Shown in pieces: positions 10,382 through 36,640 of a stretch of 47,510 bases of DNA. Location of the stretch: NCBI GenBank assembly GCA_946625675.1, contig CAMOTI010000084.1, positions 1 to 47,510 on the forward strand, read 5' to 3'. The number at the start of each line of letters is the position of its first letter. Positions within the stretch are counted from its first letter, which is position 1. The DNA is from an uncultured Prevotellaceae bacterium (lineage in GTDB: Bacteria > Bacteroidota > Bacteroidia > Bacteroidales > Bacteroidaceae). A model generated the notes under the pieces. It ran no database searches and had not been told where the DNA came from. It worked only from the letters and a program-made list of their open reading frames with translations. Made by a program: the position numbers and the translations under genes.

Positions 10382-11641
10382 CTATCGTTTCACATAAATT
10401 GGGCAAGAAACGGAAATGCCGGTGTTGTGCGCTTTGAAGGCATGGGCGCGGACGTAGGCACCGAGGGCTATGTTGTTGAGTTTTGGGAAATGGTATTTGA
10501 GTCCGATGGTCTCGTAGAAGGGTTGCTCCACTTCGCAGGCTTTTTTTCCGTGCTGCCTGAAGACATAGAACCCAAAGGACATGGAGAGAGAGAGGTTGTG
10601 GTAGAAGACATCGTGCTTGCCTGAAATACCTATGGATATGGGTGAGTGACTCTTATGATAACCGTTGATTTTGTCGAGTTTCTTCACGCGGTCCATATAA
10701 GAAAGATAATAGACATCTATTCCGACCCCTGACGCCCATCTTCGCGCATATCGGCTCATGTAGTCGGCAGAGAGGGTGTATACAGCGTATTTCGAGAAAT
10801 TGTTTGAACGGTAGTCCGGGTCGTCCATAGGTGTTTTGAACTGTGTCTGCAGCCAGTCTTCATACAGCGTGCAAAAACCGACGTTTGCGGTGATGTTCCA
10901 GTATTTTGTCTTGTCGAAGGGAACCGTCTGTTTATATTGATCCTTCTTCAGGAGTTCGTCATAATAAGGATAATACACCAGTCCGAGGGTTGGTCCGATT
11001 GTGTTTGACCCTTTGTTCGGTCGTTTAAGCGTACCGGAGCTGTGGTGGTTGAACTCGATTCCCGCCTTGAGTCCCCAGTCTTTGGCAAAACGGTAGGTGG
11101 CGTGGAAGGCCGCACCGAAATAGATGGTCATGTGACTTGAAATCATAAGGTTGTCGGGGGAAGACGTCCTATTGTATTTTTTATTGGCGAATCCGAGTCC
11201 GATATTAAAAGCATAATCAGTCTCCCACCTGTAGTTTCGGAAGAAAGGCCGTTCGAATCCGGCATATACAGATAGTGCGTTTCCCAGTCTGGAATCAAAG
11301 TCTACAGGTTGTCCCAATCCGAGGTCTCCATCTGCATCGCGGTGTAGCTTGACATGGTTGTAGAGATTATAGTTGATTCCGGCATAGAACGTCGGGAATC
11401 CATAATCCTGGGCAAAGATGTCCTGGTCGCTTGGCAATGACACATGACGCAGTTGTGCAGAGAGCGTGACCGCCCCGTTTTGGCTGACCAGTTCCTTGAT
11501 TTGCGTGTCCATGGTAGGCACGACGCATGGATTAACCATCAGCTGTCCTCCCCAGTGCTTGATGGTGTCGTTGACTTCAGCAGAGACAGCAGTGAAAAAG
11601 AAACAGAAAAGAGCTAAAAAAAAGACCTTGGATTTATTCAT
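10382..11641 (-). CDS. Acyloxyacyl hydrolase / PagL-like lipid A 3-O-deacylase family outer membrane protein
   Basis: From MNKSKVFFLALFCFFFTAVSA (signal peptide). Beta-barrel-like strands and the PagL-type motif EFNHHSSGTLKRPNKGSNTIGPTLGLVYY. Confidence 0.7.
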   Translation of the reverse strand: MNKSKVFFLALFCFFFTAVSAEVNDTIKHWGGQLMVNPCVVPTMDTQIKELVSQNGAVTLSAQLRHVSLPSDQDIFAQDYGFPTFYAGINYNLYNHVKLHRDADGDLGLGQPVDFDSRLGNALSVYAGFERPFFRNYRWETDYAFNIGLGFANKKYNRTSSPDNLMISSHMTIYFGAAFHATYRFAKDWGLKAGIEFNHHSSGTLKRPNKGSNTIGPTLGLVYYPYYDELLKKDQYKQTVPFDKTKYWNITANVGFCTLYEDWLQTQFKTPMDDPDYRSNNFSKYAVYTLSADYMSRYARRWASGVGIDVYYLSYMDRVKKLDKINGYHKSHSPISIGISGKHDVFYHNLSLSMSFGFYVFRQHGKKACEVEQPFYETIGLKYHFPKLNNIALGAYVRAHAFKAHNTGISVSCPIYVKR

Positions 11642-12329
11642 GATTTTTAATGGCGATGACACAATGGAGGATCAGAGGAATGCCGTAAAGCAAAATAGCG
11701 AGGATCACAACAGGCTGAGGCCATTCCTGTCCTGGTATGAAATCGAGAAAAAAAGCATGCAGGATCATGGCTAAAAGCTGCGAAACGACAAAAAGAGTGA
11801 TGAAATAGTCAGCAATCCTCACTGGCAGGCTGACCGTGGCCTTCACGACATCGCTGACAGCATTGAACCTGCCGATGGAATAAGCATAAATGATTGATAG
11901 CAGATAAAGAATGAAAGCTATGATAGGGAACAATCCTCGCTGCAACGCCGAGTTGCTGAATGTGCCAAACGCGCTAAGAAGGATATTACCCGGAAGAAGC
12001 GAAAGAATGACAGCAAAAGTGATTAAAAATCCCAGGGCAGCAGCCACCAGCATATAAGCCCTCTTCTGTCTGAGGTATTTCTGCTTGGAAAATCCCGATA
12101 AGATGCCAGACTCGGCAATCATGCTCACCGTGGCAGCTCCCATGACCACATAATGCCATGGCGCCATACGGAAATTATACATAATCGTGGCCACCATCCA
12201 TCTCATCCCTTCGCTTGAAAGGATGTTTCTGCAGTTGGCTCCATAGACATTGGCAATCCATGATACGACAGCCGTAATGACGATAAGAGCCAACAAGATA
12301 ATGGGCAGCAAATAAAGAAATCGTCGCAA
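11634..12329 (-). CDS. Short multi-TM membrane protein resembling a truncated AbgT-family transporter
   Basis: 231 aa, about 6 TM. CRNILSSEGMRWMVATIMYNFRMAPWHYVVMGAATVSMIAESGIL resembles AbgT NLLSxEGLxWxxxxxxxNFxxFAPLGxxLxxxLGxGxAExxGLL. Overlaps the next start codon by 8 nt. Confidence 0.55.
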   Translation of the reverse strand: MRRFLYLLPIILLALIVITAVVSWIANVYGANCRNILSSEGMRWMVATIMYNFRMAPWHYVVMGAATVSMIAESGILSGFSKQKYLRQKRAYMLVAAALGFLITFAVILSLLPGNILLSAFGTFSNSALQRGLFPIIAFILYLLSIIYAYSIGRFNAVSDVVKATVSLPVRIADYFITLFVVSQLLAMILHAFFLDFIPGQEWPQPVVILAILLYGIPLILHCVIAIKNHE

Positions 12330-12409
12330 GAGGAAATAATAGTAATTTATCTAAAAAAGTAATACGAATAGCTTTCATCACAACAGAAAGGAGGTCACCA
12401 CTCCCCCAC

Positions 12410-13135
12410 TTAATCGTCGTCAGGCTCAAGATTGTCGATGTCGATAATTCTGAGCTGTATCGCTCTCGTGACAAGTCTGGTGGCATTTACTCCATTGAGC
12501 CTTTCAGAATCAGAAAAGAGTCTGTTGATGAGGTCCATCTGCCGTTTTTCAAGCGACTTCACTCCGAAAGGCATGCCTCTGAGTTGCGCAATCATGTCCT
12601 TGGTGTATCCAAGAGCCAGGTGTCTGAGGAACCTCTCGTCGTACTCATCGATGTCGTAATCGACAAACGCCTCCTGCTTCCTGGACTCACTAAGCACCGA
12701 GCGGCGATATCTCTCCAGGATTTTCTCGAGGATAGGCTGATTGAACACGAGCCGTTTGCCGTCCATAACGCTTTGCACATCCCCTTTGGTAAGAAGCTCG
12801 CCACTTTTAAGAATGATTCCGTCGGCCCCTGCGTCCAGCACATCTACCCACAACTTCTCATTAAGCGTTTCGCCAGTAAAAATAAGCACATGCAAATCTT
12901 TGTATTGTTTTCTGAGTTTCCGGCAGATTTCCACTCCGATAGTTGTGGATCCTCCGAGTCCCAGATCCAGCAATACGAGGTCCGGCACTTGCTGTTTGAT
13001 CAGTTTCCAGAAATCCTCCTCATTCTGTGCAGTGCCGATGATTTCGGCCTGCGGGATGTCGTTTTTGAAAATTTCCTCAGTTCCTTTAAGTTCGAGTTTG
13101 ACATCCTCCACGATGATGACCTTGAATTTGTCCAT
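12410..13135 (-). CDS. Response regulator with divergent LuxR-like C-terminal domain
   Basis: Receiver motifs KVIIVEDVK, DLVLLDLGLGG, LIFTGE, GIILKSGELL. C-terminus FLRHLALGYTKDMIAQLRGM...NATRLVTRAIQLRII resembles a LuxR/NarL HTH. Confidence 0.85.
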   Translation of the reverse strand: MDKFKVIIVEDVKLELKGTEEIFKNDIPQAEIIGTAQNEEDFWKLIKQQVPDLVLLDLGLGGSTTIGVEICRKLRKQYKDLHVLIFTGETLNEKLWVDVLDAGADGIILKSGELLTKGDVQSVMDGKRLVFNQPILEKILERYRRSVLSESRKQEAFVDYDIDEYDERFLRHLALGYTKDMIAQLRGMPFGVKSLEKRQMDLINRLFSDSERLNGVNATRLVTRAIQLRIIDIDNLEPDDD

Positions 13136-13178
13136 ATATTGTTATTGTTTTATTGAAAATCAGGCATCTGAAAGCAGA

Positions 13179-16100
13179 CTAAGAATCAGCTTCAGATTGA
13201 AGTTGTGATGACTCTCTTGCAGCAGGAATGGTGAAACACAGTTGCAGTCCGTTTCCGTCATTGTCGAGTTGACAGGCATATATTCTGCATCCCCTCCTCA
13301 CGTGTTCGTCGTGCTCACGTATGATTTGCTTGGCGATGAGCATCTGTGCCCCGTTAAGCCTGTCGAGCTGAGGGTCGTATACCAGGGCTTCGGGATAGAA
13401 CATCGACTTGATTTCATCCTGCGACTTTTTGATGTTGTCGAAAGAAAATGCAAACTTAATAAATTCTTGTGACTTTTCAAAATTCAGCGTCAAAGTTCCT
13501 TTATTTTTTTGTAAATATAAAGCCTCAACAACATTTTCGATGAGATAGAAGAGCATAGTCTGGTCAGCGACCACCATCCATCCGTAAGACTCCGGCTTCG
13601 ACTGATGGACAAAATTCACTTCCGTATCATACTTCCTGGCATATTTTTTGACAGTCTTTTCGACGAACGCAGCCACCTCGGCAATCTTTATGTTTTTTCT
13701 TTTGAACATCGGGCGTTGTATTTGCTTGGCTGTACAGTCGGCAAGAATAGTGAAGATCTCCTTATAATAAGAAGTCAGTTCCGCCATTGAGTTCACATTG
13801 TCCTCCAAGAGCTCCGGATTATTCCAACATTCAGTCTTGCTGATGTTATCCACAATCTGCCGGATTCTGTTGGGATAATACATGGTTTCGTGCTTGATGG
13901 TTGACAATGTATTATCGATGACCAGGTTCTGCACATGTACGAGGTTCGCCTCTCTGTCGGCCCTTCTTTTCTCATCCTCAATAATCTCGATGTTGTCGTT
14001 GATGCTCTCCATCCTAACAGATGAATAGTAGATATTCTCAGCAGTGTACTTAGCGATATTGCGCAGCATCCGCTCATCGTTGTCGTTCAGATGGTCGCTA
14101 TAAAGCAGAAAGGCAATCACGCCAATGGTTGCGCCATTATCGATGTCGAGTGTGTAAATACGGGTCTTGCCATTGTCGAGTGTAAGATTCGCTTTCTTCT
14201 CGAATGCATCCTTGATGACAGACTCCAAATATTCTTGTTGCGGACAGTTTTCGGAGAAATAGATTTTGTCCTTCCCCATGCAGAGCACTACTCCATTGGT
14301 TCGTCTGACTTCGTTGACTCCCTGCCTTATGATTGTGGCCAGGCTTTTCTCGTCTTCGTTGTTGAAAATCCTGCGGTTCAACTCAAGAATCTGCCTCATG
14401 GCAAATGTGGGAAGGATATTGTTTTTGTAATAGATGAAATAATAGATGACCGCTCCAGTCAGGATTGCCGTGATGACAAGGAATAGAAGAGTTTTTCCGT
14501 TGCCGTTTGCCTGTTTTATCTCATTACATCTTGCATCGAGCTCCTTATCTTGAGATGAGTTCTTGTGCAGTCGGTTGAAAATTTCATTATTATAGAAATA
14601 AAGATTCCATTGCTTAAGTGCAAGTGCCGCAATAGCCACCTCGTTTCTCATCTGCATGATGGTCTGGTAGTCAGTGATAAATCCGTCGTTCCACCACTCC
14701 ACCTCAGCCATTGCCTTTTCATCATAAATCTTGATGATCTTTGTGCTGTCAGGGTTTTGCTTCATGTAGAACTTGTTGAGATGGAAAATGACGGAATCGG
14801 CCATTTGCAACGCAAATTGGTATTGCTGATTGACGTTGGCGTTGAAGAGGTCCTGCACGAAATAGTTGGCCATGATGACATCAGAATCATTCGGCTGAGC
14901 AGAAATCTTGGTGTGCACATCGTCGAGCTGACGCTTCTCATGATGGCAAGACGAGAAAAGCATAGGTAAAACAAGAGCAAGCATCATCAGCTTGTTTCTG
15001 ACAGTCCCTTTTGGAAGTCTGAAGAAAAACCGGCTTCCCTTTCCGATTTGGCTTTCTATTCCGAATTTGCAAACACTGAAAACGGAGTTGGTTTTCTTGT
15101 ACTTGTCGATAATGCCTTTGCAGTTGAGCAATCCGAATCCAAACCCCTTGTTTTTCTTCAGTTCCTCATCAGAGTCGGTATCACCGATTTTTGCAGAGTC
15201 ATACACTTTCTCTCCGAGTATGGTGTTCACGTCTTCCTGTGTCATTCCCCTGCCTTGGTCTTTCACCGACACCTCCACATAACCATCCTGTTCCTTCGCA
15301 TAAAGTTCCACCTCCCCACGATCGAACGAGTACTTTCTGGCATTTTCAAGGAGCGTGTTCATCATGAAGAGCGTGAGCGCCCTGTCCGCTTTCACGACAG
15401 AGTCGGTGTCCTGTATAATCAATTCAATCCCTTTCGCCTTGAACGACCTGAGATTGGTTTTGAGAATGTCGAAAAGAGGCATGAGAGGGAAATTCTCAAT
15501 ATTGAGCGACACCTCTCCCTGCCTTATCTTGATCCATGATGAGAGGATATCGTTGTAGACATTGATGCGCTCAATCAGTTCAGCGACATAATTGAGCCTG
15601 CGCTCAACCAGTGGTCTGACATCCAGAATCATCTGTTCCTGTTGCGCTTTTCCTCCGCTATCTTTCGCCCCGTTGATGTCCTCTCTGATTTTCCTGACCT
15701 CATTGACCGCCCTGTCGAGGAAAGGAGTGATGGCATAAACGATGGCCAGGCATGTAGCCTTGTTGATGTATTGCCGTTTCTGCTCGTCGAGCCTTTTCTC
15801 CTTGCTTATTCTCTCAGCCATGGCCATTTCCTGATGTTCTTCCAGATTAGAGAAGTCGAGGTCGGTCTTTTCTCTCCATCTGACCATTTCCTGCTCCATG
15901 CTCTTCTGCTCTTGCATGAAATTTCTGAGATAGTTGTTTTTCACCTTCCTTGTGAGATATACGAGAGCGAAAGCGAAGAGGGTAAGAAAGACGGCAGCAA
16001 AAATCATATATCGGTTGACGTCGGCCTGTTCCTTTTGGAGTGTGGCAAGAATCTGTTCCATTCTTTTGTCCTGCCGGGTGATGTCCCTGATATCCAGGAA

Positions 16101-17375
16101 TATGTTTCTATTATAGTCGGACTGAGCCTTCAGCCCCATGGCACTATAGACGATGCAGAAATGTTCCCTGATGTCGGCCATCCACTCAGGGAGGCAGACT
16201 ACTGAATCAGCAATCCATTTCATTTCAGTGGAGTTAAACTCAGCCTTGCCTTTCTCCACAAGCGCCTTTCTCTGCAATTCGAATTGGGCAAACTGTGCGG
16301 AGTCCGGATATGCATACAGCACGTCATTGTCGTTGCTCACCCTCTTGTGATGAATGTTGACACAATCGAGCGCACTCTGCATGGCACCAAGGGCCTTCTC
16401 GTTATCTCCGGCCGCGATATAGAAATCAGCGATGGTGTTATAGGTCTGCGCCACATCGAACAGCGATCCGTAATTCTGGAAAATGTCGAGGGCGAAAAGA
16501 CAAATGTCGAGTGGCAGTGATTTGTCGTCGGCCGAATCCGGCTGTTCGATGATTTCCTTGATGAGATTAATTCGGCTCGGCCTGTATTCCTTCTGTTTGA
16601 TAAGGTCTTCCGCTACAGAGGTAAGCGATTTCGCGAGTATGTAATTCAGGTTGTTAGCTTTAGCCTCCGTTGCCGCCTCAAGGAGGTTGGATGTGTTGTC
16701 TTCCGTAAGCCTGTTGTCCACGTTCTTCGCATTACCGAAGAGGAAGAAGAACATCAGTCTTTGCTGCGCGTCCTCCTCGACAATACGATAGTTGTCCATA
16801 ATGAATTTCATCTCAGCATCCCCGTCCTCCTCTTGTCGTAGATAATAGTAATAGACATATAAAGTGAGATGGAACTCAGAAACAGCAAAATTCCATATTC
16901 TTGTCTGTCGTTGGTTCATGGAAGAAACCTCAGGCCTGATACGGTCCATTTTCCGCAATGCATCATTGTAGTAGTCGTAGAAAGCCTTGTTGACCGACCT
17001 TCTTTGGCATATTTTCATCATAATTACATCCGCCACCAGCCTGTACAGTTCATTGGTGGAGTAATCCAACACATTCTTGAGACATACACTGGCTGAATCA
17101 TAGTCCATGGTCATATACTTGGCAAATCCGATGTGGCAGAGAGCCTCATCCCTTCCATCGTTGTATCCATAAGATTTCTCGTGTATATCCAGCGCCTTCT
17201 CCGCGTAGTAGACGACGGAGTCCGCCTTGACGTAGTATGCCTTGTACGCCTTATCGTTGAGTTGGTCGATTGCCTCTTTTTCCTCATCAGAGAGCTTCTG
17301 ACACGCCACACAAGCCATCAAAGTCAAGAAAGTGAAGCAAATAAACCGTAAAAACACATTGTCCGCCATAGCCAT
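13179..17375 (-). CDS. Two-module membrane sensor histidine kinase-like protein
   Basis: N-terminal lipoprotein-like signal (MAMADNVFLRFICFTFLTLMACVACQ), TPR-like helical sensor, TM (YMIFAAVFLTLFAFALVYL), HATPase with N/G1/G2 boxes (FMMNTLLENARKYS, VKDQGRGM, KGFGFGLLNCKG). In-frame second module with hydrophobic/lipobox segment (KLMMLALVLPMLFSSCHH), second TM (LLFLVITAILTGAVIYYFIYY) and H-box-like STIKHETMYYPNRIRQIV. ATG at 17375, 4 nt after the upstream stop; ORF track extends to 17429. Confidence 0.85.
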   Translation of the reverse strand: MAMADNVFLRFICFTFLTLMACVACQKLSDEEKEAIDQLNDKAYKAYYVKADSVVYYAEKALDIHEKSYGYNDGRDEALCHIGFAKYMTMDYDSASVCLKNVLDYSTNELYRLVADVIMMKICQRRSVNKAFYDYYNDALRKMDRIRPEVSSMNQRQTRIWNFAVSEFHLTLYVYYYYLRQEEDGDAEMKFIMDNYRIVEEDAQQRLMFFFLFGNAKNVDNRLTEDNTSNLLEAATEAKANNLNYILAKSLTSVAEDLIKQKEYRPSRINLIKEIIEQPDSADDKSLPLDICLFALDIFQNYGSLFDVAQTYNTIADFYIAAGDNEKALGAMQSALDCVNIHHKRVSNDNDVLYAYPDSAQFAQFELQRKALVEKGKAEFNSTEMKWIADSVVCLPEWMADIREHFCIVYSAMGLKAQSDYNRNIFLDIRDITRQDKRMEQILATLQKEQADVNRYMIFAAVFLTLFAFALVYLTRKVKNNYLRNFMQEQKSMEQEMVRWREKTDLDFSNLEEHQEMAMAERISKEKRLDEQKRQYINKATCLAIVYAITPFLDRAVNEVRKIREDINGAKDSGGKAQQEQMILDVRPLVERRLNYVAELIERINVYNDILSSWIKIRQGEVSLNIENFPLMPLFDILKTNLRSFKAKGIELIIQDTDSVVKADRALTLFMMNTLLENARKYSFDRGEVELYAKEQDGYVEVSVKDQGRGMTQEDVNTILGEKVYDSAKIGDTDSDEELKKNKGFGFGLLNCKGIIDKYKKTNSVFSVCKFGIESQIGKGSRFFFRLPKGTVRNKLMMLALVLPMLFSSCHHEKRQLDDVHTKISAQPNDSDVIMANYFVQDLFNANVNQQYQFALQMADSVIFHLNKFYMKQNPDSTKIIKIYDEKAMAEVEWWNDGFITDYQTIMQMRNEVAIAALALKQWNLYFYNNEIFNRLHKNSSQDKELDARCNEIKQANGNGKTLLFLVITAILTGAVIYYFIYYKNNILPTFAMRQILELNRRIFNNEDEKSLATIIRQGVNEVRRTNGVVLCMGKDKIYFSENCPQQEYLESVIKDAFEKKANLTLDNGKTRIYTLDIDNGATIGVIAFLLYSDHLNDNDERMLRNIAKYTAENIYYSSVRMESINDNIEIIEDEKRRADREANLVHVQNLVIDNTLSTIKHETMYYPNRIRQIVDNISKTECWNNPELLEDNVNSMAELTSYYKEIFTILADCTAKQIQRPMFKRKNIKIAEVAAFVEKTVKKYARKYDTEVNFVHQSKPESYGWMVVADQTMLFYLIENVVEALYLQKNKGTLTLNFEKSQEFIKFAFSFDNIKKSQDEIKSMFYPEALVYDPQLDRLNGAQMLIAKQIIREHDEHVRRGCRIYACQLDNDGNGLQLCFTIPAARESSQLQSEADS

Positions 17376-17379
17376 TCCT

Positions 17380-18246
17380 TTACTTGAGATTTTCCGCCTT
17401 CTTAAATTCAAGAGGTCCCAATCCCACATGCGTTTTAAACCACTTTCCGAAATAGGACTGGTTGGGGAAATTCATGACCTCAGCAATCTCCTTGACAGTG
17501 AGGTTGGACTCGGTAATGAATTTTTTTGCCTCTTTAACCAGAATAGATGTGATCCACTGTGAAGGAGTCTGTCCCGTGCGTTGCTTAACCACGGAAGAGA
17601 AATATCTCATAGAAATATACTGCCTATTGGAATAAAACGACACCTCATGCTGTGTGAGGTAGTGTTCTTTAAGGTCGTTAAGGAACTTTCTGACAATATC
17701 GTCCCTTCTGTCGACAGAGTTTTTGAGCCCATTGTCGGCATCGGCATAAGCCATGATAATTTGCAAGACCAGATTTAACTTGACATTTTCGATTTGTAGG
17801 TTGTTGAGCTGCCAGAATCGTCTTTGGTTGTTGTCGGCAAAGAGTTTTGACAGTTCGAGATGCTTTTGGTAAAGTTCGATGTAGTTTTTGAGAGAGGTGA
17901 GATCATGTTCCGACAAATCCGTGAGAGGATTCTGCCTGATATACAGAATTGAGTCGACATCAGTGATCCTGGTAAGCAGAGGCTGCACGACATTGACATC
18001 AACGGACATCATGATTCCATATAAGTCCTCAGAAGCATCAATGATTTTCAGAATGGAATAAGGAAAATAAACGACAATATTGTTTTTTTTCATCTCATAC
18101 TTGGTGTCATCAAGAAAAAAAGTGACATTTCCATTGAGACAGATAAACATACCGCTTAGAGCAAATCTGAGCGGTTCGGCTTCTGGCATAAAGCCCTCGT
18201 TTTTATTTCCAGAAATAATTCTATATACGACGTTGTCCTGGGGCAT
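17380..18246 (-). CDS. AraC family transcriptional regulator
   Basis: 288 aa. C-terminal HTH KEAKKFITESNLTVKEIAEVMNFPNQSYFGKWFKTHVGLGPLEFKK; N-terminal cupin-like domain. Confidence 0.92.
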   Translation of the reverse strand: MPQDNVVYRIISGNKNEGFMPEAEPLRFALSGMFICLNGNVTFFLDDTKYEMKKNNIVVYFPYSILKIIDASEDLYGIMMSVDVNVVQPLLTRITDVDSILYIRQNPLTDLSEHDLTSLKNYIELYQKHLELSKLFADNNQRRFWQLNNLQIENVKLNLVLQIIMAYADADNGLKNSVDRRDDIVRKFLNDLKEHYLTQHEVSFYSNRQYISMRYFSSVVKQRTGQTPSQWITSILVKEAKKFITESNLTVKEIAEVMNFPNQSYFGKWFKTHVGLGPLEFKKAENLK

Positions 18247-18592: not shown

Positions 18593-19705
18593 ATGAGAAT
18601 AAAGCAAATCGCATGGGCAATGCCAAGACGCGTCAGGAGCAATCTTTTCTTCATGCTCTGCATGCTCATGCCGCTGACGCTGTTAAGTTGCCATGAAGAA
18701 AAGGTGAGCAAGAAATCTCCCCAATACGTAAAGACAACGACTGCAGAGTCGACAGGAGAAGAAAGTCTGATCAGCTACCCAGGAAAGACGAAGGCCGCCG
18801 ACGTGGTGAGTCCTTCATTCAAGGTGAGCGGTACCTTGTCGAGAATATACGTGAAAGAAGGCGACCATGTGAGGAAAGGTCAGCTGATAGCAGAGCTTGA
18901 CGCCCACGACTATGACGTTCAGCTACGCGCCACAGAAGCCGAATACGCTCAGATAAAAGCAGATGCTGAGCGTGTGATTTCCATGTATAATGAAGGTACA
19001 ACGACCGCATCTAACTACGACAAAGCCCGTTACGGTCTTCAACAGATTGAGGAGAAATTATCGCATCACCGCGATCAGGTGAAATACTGCAAACTGTATT
19101 CTCCGATTGACGGATATGTGCAGAGCAAGAACCACGACGTAGGCGAGAACGTAGGTGCAGGCATGTCGGTATTGTCACTGTTTTCGTCCTCTAACATAGA
19201 GATAGAGATATTCATTCCCGGATCGGACTACAGCCGTCGCAGCGACATGCTCCGTGCGATATGCACTTTTGACGTGATGCCCGACAACATTTATTCCCTT
19301 GACATCTCGCGAATGAGCAAAGAAGCCAACGCAAGCCAACTTTATATGGTCCGCCTGAGTTTCAAGCCCGGTGCCGACATCAAGCGTATTACCCCCGGAA
19401 TGACAACGATGGTATATATAAGCTATGTGAAAGGAGTAAGTCAAGGCACAGTGATAATCCCCTCTTCATGCATCCTTCGCAGCAAAGGGCGCTCCCTGGT
19501 TTACGTTTACGACAAGAGTTCCAGCACAGTCCAGCCTCGCGTGGTTGAGACAGGAAACCTTGACACCCGCGGCAATATAGAAGTGACCTCAGGCCTGTCG
19601 GCAGGCGAGACAGTGGTGTCGGCAGGCGTGAGATTTCTCAAGCCAGGCGAGCGCGTTAAGGAAGCCGACAAAACCTCCCCGTCGAACAAAGGCAAACTTT
19701 TGTAG
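18593..19705 (+). CDS. RND efflux periplasmic adaptor subunit (HlyD/MFP family), lipoprotein
   Basis: 370 aa. Lipobox LTLLSCHEE; SGTLSRIYVKEGDHVRKGQLIAELDAHDYDVQL and C-terminal VTSGLSAGETVVSAGVRFLKPGERV. Confidence 0.93.
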   Translation: MRIKQIAWAMPRRVRSNLFFMLCMLMPLTLLSCHEEKVSKKSPQYVKTTTAESTGEESLISYPGKTKAADVVSPSFKVSGTLSRIYVKEGDHVRKGQLIAELDAHDYDVQLRATEAEYAQIKADAERVISMYNEGTTTASNYDKARYGLQQIEEKLSHHRDQVKYCKLYSPIDGYVQSKNHDVGENVGAGMSVLSLFSSSNIEIEIFIPGSDYSRRSDMLRAICTFDVMPDNIYSLDISRMSKEANASQLYMVRLSFKPGADIKRITPGMTTMVYISYVKGVSQGTVIIPSSCILRSKGRSLVYVYDKSSSTVQPRVVETGNLDTRGNIEVTSGLSAGETVVSAGVRFLKPGERVKEADKTSPSNKGKLL

Positions 19706-19749
19706 ACAGAGAGAAAAAATCAAAATGAAATTCCGCAACAAACGACACG

Positions 19750-22700
19750 ATGGCAAACATAGATTTTTCGAATTGGGCATTAAACAACCGTAAACTGATT
19801 AACTTTTTCATCATCTGCCTTGTGATTGGCGGTGTCATGAGTTTTTATGACATGCCAAAGCTGGAGGATCCGGAGCTGAAAGTGAAGCAGGCCATGGTTG
19901 TGACCACCTATCCAGGCGCTTCAGCCCACGAAGTGGAGCTGGAGGTGACCGACAAAATCGAGAAGAGCATCCGTGAGATGCGATCGATATATACGATAGA
20001 GAGCCAGTCGATGAACGACTTGAGCATTATCTCAGTGGAGCTCAACAAGACCCTTCCCGACGCAGAAGTAGAGCAAGAATGGGATATGCTCCGGCGTAAA
20101 GTAGAGAATGCCTCCCATTCCCTCCCCTCCGGTGCAAGCAATCCGATAGTGAGGGATGATTTCGGCGATGTTTACGGTATGTTTTATAGTCTGACAGGAG
20201 ACGGTCTGAGCAATATAGAGATGTCGGACTATGCAGAGTTAGCCAAACGCAACATAAGCGACATAGAAGGCGTTGCCCGCTGCGACATCTACGGTGTGAA
20301 AGAAGAGTGCATCTACGTAGACATGAAGCAGGAGAAGATGGCAAACCTGGGCGTAATGCCCACAGAAGTGCTTCAGACCCTAAACAGCCAGAACAAAACC
20401 GCATACAGCGGCTACTTCAATAACGGCGGCAACCGCATCCGTATTCAGGTGGCGGACAAGTTCAAGACAGTGGACGACATCGGGATGATGCTTATCCAGG
20501 GCCATGATAACGACCAGCTTCGCATCCACGACATTGCCAAAGTGTACAAAGCTTATGCCACCCCAACACGCAATGAGATGTACCGTGACGGTAATCCCGC
20601 TTTAGGCATATCCATTGCCTGCATCGGGAGTTACGACGTGGTGAAAGTGGGCAAAAAAGTAGACGAAGTCATCAAGTCCTTGCAGTCCCGCATGCCCGTT
20701 GGCGTGAAGTTCGAGAAAATATTCAATCAGCCCGAACGCGTAAACGCTGCCATCTCCACATTCCTTGTCAACTTGGCAGAATCCGTCCTGATTGTGATTA
20801 TCGTGTTGATATTCACGATGGGTTTCAAGTCAGGATTGATAATCGGTATCAGCTTGGTAACGATTGTGTTAGGCTCGCTCGTTGTACTGAGTGGCTTTGA
20901 CGGCACCTTGCAGCGAGTTTCGTTAGGAGCCTTCATCATAGCCATGGGAATGTTGGTGGACAACGCGATAGTCATCGTCGACGGCATCCTGATTGACCTA
21001 CAGAACGGAATGCCCAAGCGTGAAGCCCTATGTAACATAGCACGCAAGACGAGCATGCCGTTGCTGGGTGCCACCATCATCGCAATACTTGCTTTCTGGC
21101 CCATATTCCTGAGTCCGGACAGCGCCGGCGTGTATGTCCGCGACTTGTTTATCGTGATTGCCGTGTCACTGTTCCTGTCCTGGATACTGGCATTGATTCA
21201 GGTACCTCTGATGGCAGACCGGATGCTCCGGAGTCCCGAAGAGGAGGCCGCTGCCAAAGAGCGAAAAGAAGCGAAGAAAAGGCTTAAGAACAAACACAAG
21301 ACTGAAGATTCAGCCTCATCCCTACAAGCCACATCCACAGTCGCTCCAGGATCGTCTGAAATATCAAAATCGGAACAAGCCAACGTGGAGACACCTGCGC
21401 AAAAAAATTCCTATGGCGGCTTCACCTACCGGCTGTTGGAAAAGATTCTGAGACTCGGCATCCGCTTCCGTTATGTCGCCATTGCCATCGCCATCGGACT
21501 GCTTGCTTTCTGTGGCTGGTGCTACCAATATCTGAATCAAGCCTTCTTCCCCGACATGGAGTATGACCAACTATATATGGAATACAAGCTCCCCGAAGGC
21601 GTGAACTCCACCCAAGTGAATAAGGACCTGACAGAAATAGAGGCTCTGCTCCGAAAAGACAAGAATATCACCCATATCACACGCAGTATAGGTGGAACTC
21701 CCAGCCGTTACAATTTGGTGAGGAGCATCGCCACACCTTCGTTATCGTACGGAGAGTTGATCATCGACTTTAAGAGTCCCGAGGCACTGGTACACGACAT
21801 GGACAGCCTTCAGACTGTTTTGAATTCCCTCTATCCTGACGCATACATCAAGCTGAAGCGATACAACCTGATGTTCAAGAAATATCCGATAGAGGCTTGT
21901 TTCCATGGTCCCGACCCAGCAGTGCTTCATGTGCTTTGCGACTCCGCGTTGAGCATCATCCGTAACAGCAAGACATGCTATCTTCCGACCTCAGACTGGA
22001 GTCCTCAGGTCCCAGTGCTGGACATCAAATACGACCAGTCGAGCGCGCGCACCAGCGGTCTGAGCCGCAGTGACGTGGCCACCTCGGTGATGGCGTATAC
22101 GGGCGGCATACCTATTGGCACTTTTTATGATGGCATCAACCGCAAGAGTATCTACCTGAAATGTACAGACGCAGAAGGAAACGACATCAGCCGTCTGGAG
22201 AACGTGGCCGTATTCGGCCTGATGCCCAACTTGCAGAAGGTGATGAACCGCTCCACCATTCAAAAACTGATAAGTGGGAAGCAGACCAAAGGAGAGGTGA
22301 TCGAGACACTAATGCAAAGCACGCCATTGCGTCAAGTGGCCAAAAGCATCGACATCGTTTGGGACGAGCCAGTGGTGATGCGCTTCAACGGCCAGCGTTC
22401 GATGCGTGCTCAATGCTCTCCCGTACCAGGCGTGGGCACCGAGGCAGCCCGTAGAGAAATCGCTGAAAAGATCGAGGCCATAGAGCTGCCAGCAGGCTAC
22501 AGCCTGTCATGGGAAGGCGAGAAGCGCGCGAGCGACGACTCGATGAAATACCTGTTTGCCAACTTCCCGCTCGCCATCCTGCTGATGATCGTGATACTCA
22601 TCATCCTGTTCAAGGACTACAAAAAGCCGTTGATGATATTCTGCTGCGTCCCGCTTATCGTGATCGGCGTAATACCGACCATCGCCCTGACCGGCAAGCC

Positions 22701-23097
22701 CTTCGGCTTCGTGGCCATCATCGGCGTCTTAGGCCTGATAGGTATGATGATCAAAAACGGCATCGTGCTGATGGATGAAATCGAATTGCAAATCAACAAT
22801 GGTGTGACACCGATGCGCGCCCTGATAGACAGTTCGAAGAGCCGCCTTCGTCCTGTGATGATGGCCTCATTGACCACCATACTGGGTATGATTCCCTTGA
22901 TACCCGACGCATTGTTTGGGTCGTTGGCAGTGACGATTATGGGCGGATTGTTTATGGGCACCGTCATCACACTGATATTCATCCCGATCCTGTATGCCAC
23001 ATTCTTCGGTCTGAAGACCAAAGAAAAGGAGATAGACGACCTGTATGAAAAGATGGAGCCAGAGGCAATCGCACAGGAAGACGAGCAGAAAGACTAA
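19750..23097 (+). CDS. RND efflux transporter permease (AcrB/HAE-like)
   Basis: 1115 aa, 12-TM architecture: VVTTYPGASAHEVELEVTDKIE, GMLVDNAIVIVDGI, KPFGFVAIIGVLGLIGMMIKNGIVLMDEI, SRLRPVMMASLTTILGMIPL. Confidence 0.95.
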   Translation: MANIDFSNWALNNRKLINFFIICLVIGGVMSFYDMPKLEDPELKVKQAMVVTTYPGASAHEVELEVTDKIEKSIREMRSIYTIESQSMNDLSIISVELNKTLPDAEVEQEWDMLRRKVENASHSLPSGASNPIVRDDFGDVYGMFYSLTGDGLSNIEMSDYAELAKRNISDIEGVARCDIYGVKEECIYVDMKQEKMANLGVMPTEVLQTLNSQNKTAYSGYFNNGGNRIRIQVADKFKTVDDIGMMLIQGHDNDQLRIHDIAKVYKAYATPTRNEMYRDGNPALGISIACIGSYDVVKVGKKVDEVIKSLQSRMPVGVKFEKIFNQPERVNAAISTFLVNLAESVLIVIIVLIFTMGFKSGLIIGISLVTIVLGSLVVLSGFDGTLQRVSLGAFIIAMGMLVDNAIVIVDGILIDLQNGMPKREALCNIARKTSMPLLGATIIAILAFWPIFLSPDSAGVYVRDLFIVIAVSLFLSWILALIQVPLMADRMLRSPEEEAAAKERKEAKKRLKNKHKTEDSASSLQATSTVAPGSSEISKSEQANVETPAQKNSYGGFTYRLLEKILRLGIRFRYVAIAIAIGLLAFCGWCYQYLNQAFFPDMEYDQLYMEYKLPEGVNSTQVNKDLTEIEALLRKDKNITHITRSIGGTPSRYNLVRSIATPSLSYGELIIDFKSPEALVHDMDSLQTVLNSLYPDAYIKLKRYNLMFKKYPIEACFHGPDPAVLHVLCDSALSIIRNSKTCYLPTSDWSPQVPVLDIKYDQSSARTSGLSRSDVATSVMAYTGGIPIGTFYDGINRKSIYLKCTDAEGNDISRLENVAVFGLMPNLQKVMNRSTIQKLISGKQTKGEVIETLMQSTPLRQVAKSIDIVWDEPVVMRFNGQRSMRAQCSPVPGVGTEAARREIAEKIEAIELPAGYSLSWEGEKRASDDSMKYLFANFPLAILLMIVILIILFKDYKKPLMIFCCVPLIVIGVIPTIALTGKPFGFVAIIGVLGLIGMMIKNGIVLMDEIELQINNGVTPMRALIDSSKSRLRPVMMASLTTILGMIPLIPDALFGSLAVTIMGGLFMGTVITLIFIPILYATFFGLKTKEKEIDDLYEKMEPEAIAQEDEQKD

Positions 23098-23220
23098 AAT
23101 AAAAGCGAAATCGGCCACATTCAAATTTGCCGGGCCACATCTTAGCTCGTGTCAGCAAACAGGCACACATAAAGTAAAATATCCGCCGAACAGTATCAGC
23201 AAAATCAAAAACCACAAGAC

Positions 23221-24636
23221 ATGAAACGAACAGCCGTATTACTAATCAGCATATTCGCATTCGTTGAAGCTTTCTGTCAGCAGACATTGTCCCCAGGAAG
23301 CACGCTCTCCCTCCAGAAAGCCCAGGAACTGGCCCTGAACTATAATAAAAGCATCGCACACTCAAAATTACAATTTGAGCAGGCCGGCTATGACCTGTCG
23401 ATGTATAAGAGCCATAATTTTCCGCGTTTGAACTTAATCGCCACCGACTTCTACTCAACAGCCAGCAGCAATCTCAGCATAAAGGGAGGCAATCTTCCGA
23501 TATTCAGCTATAACGAAGCAGCCGGAAGCTACGTACCGAACGTAATCATGAATGCCGACGGCAGTCACACGCTGAGCCAATATGCCTATTTCCCGGACAT
23601 CAACATGAAACTGAAACTGAAGAACATCTTCATCGGAGGTTTGCAGGTGACCCAGCCAATATACACCGGCGGGAAGATCAGCGCAGCGATATCCATGGCC
23701 GAGATAGGCCAGCAGATGGCCAGTGTGAACATCCGCTTATCCGAGGACGAAGTGATAGTGAAAGTGGACGAAGCCTATATGAAGGCCGTTCGAGCGAAGG
23801 AACTGGAGGTGGTCTCCGACAGCTACTACGACATGTTGAAAGAATTGGAACGAACCGTTGAGAGCGCAGTCCGTCACGGCTTACGTCTTCGTAACGACCT
23901 GATGAAAGTTCAAGTCAAGAAGAATGAGGCCGAATTAGGTCATCAAAAGGCAGAAAACGGCTATTTGCTGGCTCGTATGAGCCTATGCCATCTGATGGGC
24001 GTTCCTCTGACAGAAGCGTCGAAACTTGAGGTAGAGACAAACACCGCCAATCAGGACCGCATGGTCCCCAAGCACAAAGGCGGTGTGGAATACCGTCCGG
24101 AGTACACCCTGCTTGAGAAACGCGCAGAACTGGCCGAGCAGCAGGTGAAGCTGGACCGCAGCGAGTATTTACCCAATGTTGCATTGTTTGGAAGCGTGAT
24201 GTATGCCAACGGTGGCGAGTTGGCCGGAAAAAAACTGCTTGACAACGGCAGCGGCACAATCGGTGTCATGGTGAAGGTTCCGTTATATAATTTCGGTGAA
24301 GGCAGCAACAAAGTGCGCTCCTCCAAGGCAAAGGCCCAGATGGCCGCCCTTGAGCTTCAGGAGAAATCCGAATTGATGGAACTGGAAATCGCCCTATGCC
24401 GCACGAATTTGGAAGAATGCGAGAAAGAGGTGGAGATAGCCCGTAAGAGCTATGACCAAGCAAGCGAAAACCTTCGCATATCGAAATCGGCCTATGACAA
24501 CGGTATTGAATTGCTTTCCGACTATTTCGACGCCCAGGCCCTGTGGCGTGAAGCAGCCGCCACACTGGTGGAAGCCCGATGCCAGCTGTACCTGGCCTAC
24601 ACAAAATTGCTGAAAGCCACTGGCCAGCTGAGATGA
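23221..24636 (+). CDS. TolC family outer membrane efflux protein
   Basis: 471 aa. Signal peptide, LSLQKAQELALNYNKSIAHSKLQFEQAGYDL, ITQPIYTGGKI-like (VTQPIYTGGKISAAI), SKSAYDNGIELLSDYFDAQALWREAAATLVEARCQLYLAYTKLLKATG. Confidence 0.95.
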   Translation: MKRTAVLLISIFAFVEAFCQQTLSPGSTLSLQKAQELALNYNKSIAHSKLQFEQAGYDLSMYKSHNFPRLNLIATDFYSTASSNLSIKGGNLPIFSYNEAAGSYVPNVIMNADGSHTLSQYAYFPDINMKLKLKNIFIGGLQVTQPIYTGGKISAAISMAEIGQQMASVNIRLSEDEVIVKVDEAYMKAVRAKELEVVSDSYYDMLKELERTVESAVRHGLRLRNDLMKVQVKKNEAELGHQKAENGYLLARMSLCHLMGVPLTEASKLEVETNTANQDRMVPKHKGGVEYRPEYTLLEKRAELAEQQVKLDRSEYLPNVALFGSVMYANGGELAGKKLLDNGSGTIGVMVKVPLYNFGEGSNKVRSSKAKAQMAALELQEKSELMELEIALCRTNLEECEKEVEIARKSYDQASENLRISKSAYDNGIELLSDYFDAQALWREAAATLVEARCQLYLAYTKLLKATGQLR

Positions 24637-26411: not shown

Positions 26412-29400
26412 TTATTGTCCTGCAATGATGTTGATGATGGCCACAATGTCGGAGATGTCTACCTTAGTGTCACCGTTCACATCAGCGAAGCGATACTCGG
26501 CAGTACCTGCAATCTGGTTGATGACAGCCACGATGTCAGAAATGTCCACCTTGGTGTCCTCGTTGACGTCGCCAGCAATATTCTTCACCGGTCCGAGATA
26601 GAAGAGCTGGAAGTCGTCGAACATACACCAGTCGCCTCCGATAGTCGTGTTCTTGTAAAGACCGAAGTTGATGCTTCCACCTTCCTTGATTACAGTGCTG
26701 ACCTCGTTGAGATAGGCATTGTTGTCGTTGGCGAAACGAGCAGCTGCACCTCTCATGGAGTTAGGATAGAAATAGCGCTCGCTTCCATCGTCGAACCAAG
26801 AATCGTATATCCATGCATCGTTAGCATCTACAGCTGAGATGTTTCCGTCAGTGTCAAACTGTTCTTTGTACGAAACAGCCGTGTAAGTAACGTTTCCGTC
26901 TTCGTCTACATTCTCCGTTTCTTCAAGCCATGCATTGAGAGTCTGGTTTTCCTCACCCAGCTCAGCAGCCGGGTTGACAGCATCGAATGTGTACTGCGTG
27001 TATGAACGCTCAGTGAAGATAGCATCCTCGTTGCAGAGAGAAACCACATCTTTCTCGTTGCTGTTTGCGAAGAACTTCACATTCGGCGTGAAGTTGGCAT
27101 CGAACCAAACATGCTCATAAGCTGCATTGAAGTTGCCGTCACGATAGAACGATTTCACTTTCACAGTGTACAGACCAGCCGGGAGAGAATACAGTGTCTG
27201 TTCGATTCTGAAGTTCGTGTTGTAAGCCTCAGAATTCTGAAGGCCGTTGTCGGTACTGAAATTACCGGTCCATCCCTTCTGTCCCTCAGTGAACGACGGG
27301 TTGACGATGAGAGCGGTGATGTCAACCGGATTGTCCTCCGACGCCTTGTCCATACCGAGTTCAGCCATGATGGTCTGGTTGTAGTACACAGCAAGTTCCT
27401 TTTCGTACTCAACCAACTTGTCTGCCTTGGCAAATTCAGCGATGAGAGCCTGTGCCTGCTCCTGAATCTTGGCCTGCAGCTCTTCGTTGTTGACTGATGA
27501 ATAAGACTCGACGATTCCCACATATTTCACGTATTCGTTGTAGTCGTTCACACAGTCCATGATATCCTTATAAGTGGCCGTCTCCTGGTTGTAGAGTTCG
27601 AATGTGTAACCCACAGCTGTGTCAAGATACTGGCTTTGGTTTGTATCGGGCTCATACTTGGCTTGGAGTTCTGAGAACATAGCAGTCACGTCATGGCTGT
27701 TAAGGTATCCGTTCGCCTCATTGATATAGTTCTGAGCCTCTTCGATAGTAGATAGTGCAGCGGCATAGGCATCATATCCCTGAACCGGCATTTTCACGTT
27801 CTCAAGCATCTTCTGTACTGCGTCACGGTCGCCCTGCAGCATGAGTTCATCGAGTTTGATGGTGATTTCATCAAGTTTCTTCTGAGTGAGTTTTGAGAAA
27901 TCAGGATTCTCACCATAATAGAGAAGCTGCATACCCGTGAAAGAGCTGAATCCGTTGGCGAAGAAAGCAACACGTGCAGTACCGTTCGTTACCTGGATCA
28001 TGTCTGTAGAATAGTAAGTCCAGTCGTCGAGGCTGTAGTTCCACCAACCCGAGAGTCTGGTTTCCTCCTGAGACTGAGCGAAGTTGTCGCCCGACTGAAT
28101 TCTGATACCCATCTTGCAGTTTCCGTTCCAGTCGTTAGACCAAGTGATACCACAACCCTTGATGCTGTAGAATCCGTTCTGCAGTCCGGTGAGGTTCTGA
28201 GCGATTTCACGCTCGTCACCAGGCAAACTCCACTGTTTAGCACTTGAGAGCTTGTGGTTCCAGTAAGGCTCATATCCTCCGGTATTCACTTGATACCAAG
28301 CATTGGTGACAGTCTCGTCCGTTCCGATAGTGACACCCTTTCCGATAGGAATACGAGTAGTGGTCTGATATGTTTTGTTGTCGCCGTCGCCAGACTCACC
28401 GAGATCAGCCCATCCGAGCAATCCGTTTTCTCCGTTGAGCACTCTTTCCTGCGGCACCCATCTGTTTTCAGCCTCATTCCATTCAGGATTGTATTCAGGC
28501 TGGCAGAAGAACGGATAAGCGATGAGATTAGTCAGGTCGAGCACACCGTCCTCATTAGGCTTAGTGACAAGATAAGCCGCTCTGGCCTGCTGAAGCTCCT
28601 TCAGAGCCACACCGTAGTCAGCGCCGGACTTCGTGTACACACCCGTTCCGTCAGCTCCGAACTCATCAGTTTCCACATTCTTTGCATTCTGGATGGCAGT
28701 CTTGAATTCCGGCAGTCCGCTATAATCCGTAGTGTTAGCCAGATCGTCGCAAGATGCGATTAACGACGACAAAGCTTTTGCGTCGTTGAGATACACCTTA
28801 TATTCCGTAACGAGCTGGTCGAGTTTTTGCGTAGCCTGCTCGTACTCCTCAACAGAAGTGTAGCCGTCAGACTCCTCCTCAATTTCAGCGAAGATGTTTT
28901 CATAATAATAAAGCAGAGAAGAATAGCCGGCAATCGCGATTTCCTCACGGAATTCATCCACGAGGTTCATCTTGTTCTGGAAATCCTCCTTTGCAATGTC
29001 CACAAGCACCCCCTCCGAAGCCTCACCGAGATATGTAGCTGTAAAGTTGGAGAAGATGCACCAGTCATTAGCAAGAGTGGCGGTTTTGCGCACACCAATT
29101 CTGAAATAGCCGTCTTCCTTTTGAACGACTTTGATAGAATTGCCTAAATAGAGTCCGGCATCAAACCATCTTCTGGTTCCCTCCATACTGTTAGGAACAT
29201 AATAATGTGTATCATTGTAAATATACTCAATGTCATCAGGCCAGTTATTTGTGGTACCCAGGAATCTTCCATCTGTGTATTCAGAAGAAGCGATACTTAT
29301 GAGAGGAGCAGAGGTTTCCCTTGTAACCTCCGTGACCTTAAGTGCGTCGTCAACATTGACAGACTCACCAAAGAAAACAGCGTTGATCTTCTCGGATTTT

Positions 29401-29708
29401 TCCCAGTAGGGCCTTTGGTAGTCTCCACGATAGAATCCCTGAACAGAGAACTGGTAGTATCCAGCCGGGAGGAAAAATGTTTGTGACAACTGTGCATTTT
29501 TAGGCTGGTTGAACATCTCCCAGGACTGCCAGTCGTATGCACCTCCTCCATTTTCAAAGATCCACACACCGGCGTCGTTGGACTGTCCGGAATAATCCTG
29601 CCATTCCAACTGGTCGGAAACGTCATCTCCTTCTTTCCAGTCATTCTGAGCGAAAGCAGAAGAGAACGTCAATCCCGCCAAAGCGACGAAAGTAAAAATT
29701 TTTTTCAT
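26412..29708 (-). CDS. Large secreted protein with repeated beta-sandwich-like modules and C-terminal dockerin type I repeats
   Basis: 1098 aa. Signal peptide MKKIFTFVALAGLTFSSAFAQ; C-terminus DVNEDTKVDISDIVAVINQIAG...DVNGDTKVDISDIVAIINIIAGQ; N- and C-terminal modules share LPAGxYxxxVxxFYR, PNSMxG, DWCxFxxFxxxYLG. Confidence 0.85.
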   Translation of the reverse strand: MKKIFTFVALAGLTFSSAFAQNDWKEGDDVSDQLEWQDYSGQSNDAGVWIFENGGGAYDWQSWEMFNQPKNAQLSQTFFLPAGYYQFSVQGFYRGDYQRPYWEKSEKINAVFFGESVNVDDALKVTEVTRETSAPLISIASSEYTDGRFLGTTNNWPDDIEYIYNDTHYYVPNSMEGTRRWFDAGLYLGNSIKVVQKEDGYFRIGVRKTATLANDWCIFSNFTATYLGEASEGVLVDIAKEDFQNKMNLVDEFREEIAIAGYSSLLYYYENIFAEIEEESDGYTSVEEYEQATQKLDQLVTEYKVYLNDAKALSSLIASCDDLANTTDYSGLPEFKTAIQNAKNVETDEFGADGTGVYTKSGADYGVALKELQQARAAYLVTKPNEDGVLDLTNLIAYPFFCQPEYNPEWNEAENRWVPQERVLNGENGLLGWADLGESGDGDNKTYQTTTRIPIGKGVTIGTDETVTNAWYQVNTGGYEPYWNHKLSSAKQWSLPGDEREIAQNLTGLQNGFYSIKGCGITWSNDWNGNCKMGIRIQSGDNFAQSQEETRLSGWWNYSLDDWTYYSTDMIQVTNGTARVAFFANGFSSFTGMQLLYYGENPDFSKLTQKKLDEITIKLDELMLQGDRDAVQKMLENVKMPVQGYDAYAAALSTIEEAQNYINEANGYLNSHDVTAMFSELQAKYEPDTNQSQYLDTAVGYTFELYNQETATYKDIMDCVNDYNEYVKYVGIVESYSSVNNEELQAKIQEQAQALIAEFAKADKLVEYEKELAVYYNQTIMAELGMDKASEDNPVDITALIVNPSFTEGQKGWTGNFSTDNGLQNSEAYNTNFRIEQTLYSLPAGLYTVKVKSFYRDGNFNAAYEHVWFDANFTPNVKFFANSNEKDVVSLCNEDAIFTERSYTQYTFDAVNPAAELGEENQTLNAWLEETENVDEDGNVTYTAVSYKEQFDTDGNISAVDANDAWIYDSWFDDGSERYFYPNSMRGAAARFANDNNAYLNEVSTVIKEGGSINFGLYKNTTIGGDWCMFDDFQLFYLGPVKNIAGDVNEDTKVDISDIVAVINQIAGTAEYRFADVNGDTKVDISDIVAIINIIAGQ

Positions 29709-29995: not shown

Positions 29996-30245
29996 CAAAC
30001 CAAACTAACTAACACAATTATAAAAAAACTACTAACGTTCGATTTTGATGTTGCAAAGTTAGCATGATAAACTTAAAAAAGCTATATGAAATGATTCTTG
30101 AAATGCAGATTTTGAAACCGAATGTTGCAAAACAACAAAATCTAAAATGAATGTATCAAATCTAACATTTTTTTATGCTAATTCTATGTTCAAAGAATAA
30201 AAAAAATCTCTAAATTTGCATAAAAATAAACCAAACTACCGAAAA

Positions 30246-36614: not shown

Positions 36615-36640
36615 AGTCAATTAAATTTACTAAAGACATG

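Follow-up and report, generated by a model that had tools for sequence, protein, structure and literature searches.

A conserved two-component locus of the Bacteroides/Prevotella family with a two-module kinase and an AbgT-derived membrane protein

Gene content and conservation of the locus

The window, which is the whole stretch of 47,510 nucleotides analysed from an uncultured Prevotellaceae bacterium, contains five closely spaced genes on the minus strand. Their order and spacing agree between our ORF calls and the initial annotation. The first gene encodes an AraC-family regulator (17380-18246) with a Pfam match to the AraC HTH. It is followed by a kinase gene (13182-17375, with the ORF ending at 13179), whose 1398-aa product starts at the ATG at 17375 and has Pfam matches to DUF5112, HATPase, and DUF5113. 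The third gene encodes a 241-aa response regulator (RR; 12410-13135) that matches PF00072 with 60 bits and PF19355 (DUF5932) with 187 bits. The fourth gene begins with a TTG codon and encodes a reduced membrane protein of 231 aa (11634-12329) that is derived from AbgT according to profile and fold comparisons. The last gene encodes a PagL-like outer-membrane protein (10382-11641, ATG at 11641). The gaps are 4 nt between the AraC and kinase genes, 43 nt between kinase and RR, and 80 nt between RR and the small membrane gene, which overlaps the PagL-like gene by 8 nt. The set diverges from an RND efflux operon, as had been reported; its MFP-RND-OEP genes, identified by Pfam and NCBIfam, occupy 18593-24636 on the plus strand.

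Farther along the window is a carbohydrate-degradation locus (26412-47209) with a true hybrid two-component system (HTCS; 30216-34367), GH43, GH95, and GH115 proteins, and a sialate acetylesterase-like esterase. This locus, in a Bacteroidota genome, also encodes a type I dockerin-domain protein of 1098 aa (26412-29708) and a fasciclin-domain protein (34542-36620).

A comparison of gene neighbourhoods divides the five genes. When 151 genomes of the same GTDB family were searched, about 121 had a true RR orthologue (127 matches, six of which are generic receivers only). The kinase gene lies beside these orthologues, and in most cases the membrane gene does too. Of 80 named loci, 77 have the AbgT-derived gene directly downstream of the RR gene, most commonly with an overlap of approximately 11 nt, and three lack it. 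No RR was found at E < 1e-40 in any of 195 Bacteroidales genomes outside the family. The conserved core thus consists of the kinase, the RR, and the AbgT-derived gene, and this three-gene two-component system is confined to the Bacteroides/Prevotella family within the genomes tested. In two genomes of one genus, the RR gene is followed by a frame of 793-847 aa that is not AbgT-like (L089 106-2649; L090 122-2503). A record titled Roseburia sp. (L104) also contains this Bacteroidaceae locus and is probably a mislabelled MAG.

The two outer genes have other affiliations. The PagL-like gene is present in 63 genomes, and only in the window and its closest relative, G066, is it linked to the core; it is outside the conserved core and is a recent, local gene. 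Its proposed likeness to PagL is borne out by a PF09411 score of 30 bits over a cut-off of 23. Like the PagL lipid A 3-O-deacylase, the protein keeps the HxS motif and the Asn (H199-x-S201 and N209), whereas Asn213 occupies the position at which PagL has Glu140, a position that we place by presuming the P. aeruginosa PagL spacing of S128-N136-E140. Asn is also found in every homologue read across this column. A sequence search of the PDB for relatives of the PagL-like protein returned none. Orthologues of the AraC regulator in other genera are 34-42% identical and lie divergently beside the same MFP-RND-OEP pump. None of them adjoins a kinase in the five regions read (L046, L058-L061), and AraC-kinase adjacency occurs only in the window's genus. 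Outside this genus, its orthologues pair with the RND pump and not with the kinase.

The initial annotation had proposed that all five genes form one envelope or antimicrobial stress operon that controls lipid A modification and efflux. The short gaps seen in both the window and G066 favour this proposal, but the neighbourhood comparison rules out that the five genes are conserved together, an outcome that the annotation itself had named as refuting it: conservation among the family genomes holds for the kinase, RR, and AbgT-derived genes and fails for the linkage of the AraC and PagL-like genes. The PagL-like gene is linked in so few genomes, and AraC so regularly follows the pump, that a lipid A/efflux module finds no comparative support, and the Asn at the Glu140 position further detracts from it. 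We consider a single five-gene operon very improbable. The best explanation is that the locus comprises three units, namely an AraC regulator paired with an RND pump, the conserved three-gene system, and a PagL-like gene that was acquired locally. In the window's genus, the core might be functionally linked to efflux, and adjacency is the one observation that speaks for this.

A kinase with two complementary modules

The kinase chain is composed of DUF5112, a DUF5113-like domain, a TM segment, DHp/CA module 1, a second TM segment, DUF5113, a third TM segment, a GAF-like domain, and DHp/CA module 2. Module 1 spans residues 505-790 (15006-15863, minus strand) and module 2 residues 1095-1398 (13182-14093, minus strand). 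The two modules are homologous (hhalign E 7e-16) and DUF5113 matches the chain twice (14427-14873 and 15957-16472). These observations uphold the earlier description of a dual-module kinase and show that the chain is a tandemly duplicated sensor-TM-DHp-CA unit.

Conservation was counted in an alignment of 78 kinase homologues. Module 1 has an intact N-box (N678), G1 box (D706-G708-G710), and G2 box (G746/G748), and the homologues keep the N-box, DxGxG, and GFGL boxes of this module. With gapped rows set aside, the N-box is found in 75 of 75 homologues and D706 in 76 of 76. The acceptor position of this module, residue 548, is Ala in the window; nearly all homologues have Gly, Ser, Asn, or Ala there. 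His does not occur in this column in any of 75 aligned rows, and a single row (L161) has His at a neighbouring position. Module 2 shows the reverse pattern. Its H-box, LSTIKHETMYYPNRI, contains H1162 (codon 13890-13892); both H1162 and P1168 are present in 78 of 78 homologues, and the pattern KHExxYYP is kept. The DxGxG motif is found in none of the 78, and the CA domain is degenerate. Judged by these residues, the ATP-binding boxes are retained only in module 1 and the phosphoacceptor His only in module 2, so that catalytic and acceptor functions appear to be segregated into different units.

A model of residues 500-1385 (pLDDT 81.6) contains two DHp/CA-like units, and Foldseek matches it to histidine kinases. 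The kinase frame is split into two ORFs in Phocaeicola sartorii JCM 17136 (L106 2561-6963), and in Mediterranea massiliensis it is shifted (L137 2266-6967); each case is either an assembly error or a real frameshift.

The receiver domain of the RR is canonical. Counted from residue 2, it has invariant E9, D10, D56, T86, and K109, which correspond to the usual acidic pair, Asp, Thr, and Lys. The phosphoacceptor Asp is D57 of the 241 residues. Reading by eye suggests that the DUF5932 output domain is probably a divergent HTH of the NarL/LuxR type. The parts expected of a two-component system (a CA domain for ATP, an acceptor His, and a receiver Asp) are complete only when the two kinase modules are taken as one set.

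We explain this arrangement by tandem duplication of an ancestral sensor-TM-DHp-CA unit and subsequent complementary losses in its two copies. In the simplest scheme, the CA domain of module 1 would bind ATP and phosphorylate H1162 of module 2, from which the phosphate would pass to the receiver Asp of the RR. Alternately, module 1 might phosphorylate another protein, and a different kinase might feed module 2, which would then be a unit for phosphotransfer or a phosphatase. Kinase-fold proteins that lack the His do exist, such as DivL (4q20), which is among the Foldseek matches to our model, and DHp domains without an active CA domain can serve as phosphatases or phosphotransfer proteins. However, the two halves reside in one chain, their losses are complementary, and a single canonical RR gene adjoins them, which makes other partners for the two modules rather unlikely. 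The complementary halves yield a testable prediction about phosphate flow inside one chain.

Reduction of an AbgT protein

The small membrane protein of the window has no match in Pfam or NCBIfam when searched alone, and a search of the window's own genome, about 70% complete, for PF03806 found no match. Its resemblance to AbgT, which had been noted earlier, is nonetheless confirmed by a family profile of the reduced protein, which matches the AbgT structures 4r0c and 4r1i at E 1.7e-27 in two separate stretches. In Bacteroides fragilis and its relatives, the same slot is filled by full-length AbgT (482-506 aa), with PF03806 scores of up to 447 bits. The closest solved structures to this full-length form are likewise 4r0c and 4r1i (E about 1e-92). 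Phocaeicola vulgatus, Prevotella, and others share with the lineage of the window a reduced form of 198-267 aa, and a shorter form of 143-145 aa occurs in one clade.

In hhalign, the reduced form aligns with the full form as one collinear match (E 1.9e-38) that is interrupted by a single internal deletion. Across the reduced proteins, residues ~1-100 and 233-350 of the full form are kept, and residues ~100-233 and ~350-484 (the end) are lost. The deletion boundaries are alike in nearly all reduced forms. In the window, residues 12-~80 and ~88-196 correspond to residues 20-100 and ~240-356 of full-length AbgT. A half-size transporter built from inverted repeats was also considered, prompted by two matches of the small protein within frames of 490 aa; the alignment is collinear and does not show two repeats, so this candidate was rejected. 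In one genome (G146:C38:109861-110397; L050), a search gave an open frame of 1033 aa that covers the AbgT-like match, and the ORF caller instead placed a 208-aa gene there, followed by a 790-aa frame; a fusion is possible.

The AlphaFold model of the reduced protein has a pLDDT of 94.6. In a Foldseek search, five AbgT chains rank first with probabilities of 0.99-1.0 and TM-scores of 0.60-0.69 by query length, with weak E-values (0.06-0.6). No convincing fold match was found by Foldseek besides the two solved AbgT structures.

Proteins of the AbgT and DASS types have a two-domain layout (PMC7329351, PMC6359215). By this layout and by the topology of YdaH and MtrF, the lost blocks would be the two halves of the transport domain, and the kept part, which comprises TM1-2 and a central three-helix block, is probably the scaffold that forms the dimer. 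In AbgT proteins, the substrate lies where the transport domain meets the scaffold domain (PMC7329351), and the Na+ sites are located in hairpins (PMC6359215). The reduced protein has neither the full length of ~500 aa nor the two hairpin segments of the transport domain. Because both segments are absent, we describe it as derived from AbgT and do not file it as a transporter.

Thirteen pairs of reduced genes give dN/dS ratios of 0.05-0.19, with 0.08 for the 144-aa form, and these values indicate that purifying selection acts on the reduced genes and that they are not decaying. Loss of over half of the ancestral protein and the variable length (about 230, 205, or 144 aa, or absent) might bring a decaying pseudogene to mind. 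This reading is scarcely credible, and the dN/dS values, together with a frame that is intact across many genera, refute it at the sequence level.

Full-length forms and a Mediterranea pair with reduced genes (L134/L137) are split from all other reduced forms by one branch, whose support is 95.6 for kinase plus RR and 99/95 for the scaffold columns. For two independent reductions, with the Mediterranea pair nested among the full-length forms, AU p is 0.049 for kinase plus RR and 0.33 for the scaffold columns. A second, independent reduction in Mediterranea is possible. Kinase and AbgT lengths co-vary, shorter with shorter (Spearman 0.75, n=68, kinship ignored), but the co-variation is not significant under phylogenetic control, which leaves only 4 independent pairs.

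Proposed function and relation to known systems

We propose that the third gene was originally a full AbgT transporter gene adjoining the kinase gene. In most lineages, both halves of the transport domain, and with them the substrate and Na+ sites, would have been lost, and what is presumed to be the dimeric scaffold, TM1-2 with the central three-helix block, kept. This scaffold would most likely be a structural co-regulator and membrane partner of the kinase, with the reservation that conserved neighbours can share regulation without contact. A transporter with a second role like that of DctA (see below) could drop transport and keep the part that faces the kinase. The reduced protein might instead still move something, perhaps as a small channel or an oligomeric half-size transporter, while the adjacent two-component system merely controls its expression. 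Purifying selection on the reduced genes and the persistence of full-length forms in Bacteroides are consistent with such residual transport, and regulation of transport alone could account for the constant co-location. However, both hairpin segments are gone in nearly all reduced forms, and the further reduced 144-aa form is still conserved. An alternating-access transporter is hard to reconcile with these two observations, and we regard residual transport as unlikely, though worth keeping in mind.

The explanation that we favour, with a probability of roughly 55%, combines the division of the locus into three units, a kinase that acts across its modules, and an AbgT transporter turned into a kinase co-regulator, with a presumed signal at one end of the pathway and presumed target genes at the other. 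The core is a real variant of two-component signalling that has apparently not been described so far. Its two unusual features, the complementary decay of the kinase modules and the reduction of the transporter, are well supported. Tentatively, and at a little short of even odds, a transporter stripped down to a dedicated kinase subunit and an obligate two-module kinase might together form a family-wide, undescribed complex of dominant gut Bacteroidota. No papers on DUF5112, DUF5113, or DUF5932, or on an AbgT-kinase pair in Bacteroides, were found in the open-access literature. The system is widespread in Bacteroides, Phocaeicola, Mediterranea, and Prevotella, yet its distinctive domains have only DUF names, which represents a knowledge gap for major bacteria of the gut and rumen. 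The AbgT lengths (about 484, 235, 205, and 144 aa, and none) form a series that provides a natural dissection of the part of the transporter that the kinase might need.

The membrane protein resembles YdaH (4r0c) and MtrF (4r1i) of family PF03806 in profile and predicted fold over TM1-2 and the central three-helix block, and full-length members fill the same genomic slot in Bacteroides. It differs from them in that both transport-domain halves and the PF03806 match are missing. In E. coli, DctA is a structural co-regulator of the kinase DcuS, independent of transport (PMC8307970). The locus described here likewise has a transporter-like gene in conserved association with two-component genes, but DctA belongs to an unrelated family and remains a full transporter, and contact and function are here only proposed. 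As in the HTCSs of Bacteroides, the sensor kinase is a large protein of Bacteroidota; unlike them, it has no fused receiver or AraC domain and is accompanied by a separate RR with DUF5932. In the split kinase CheA3/CheA4 of Rhodobacter sphaeroides, ATP binding and the phosphoacceptor are in separate proteins, neither of which acts alone (PMC3591291). The ATP-binding and acceptor functions also appear to be in different units here, but the modules are in a single open frame and not in separate proteins. Hence the kinase would work like CheA3/CheA4 without being of that type, with both units in one membrane-bound chain derived from a tandem duplication.
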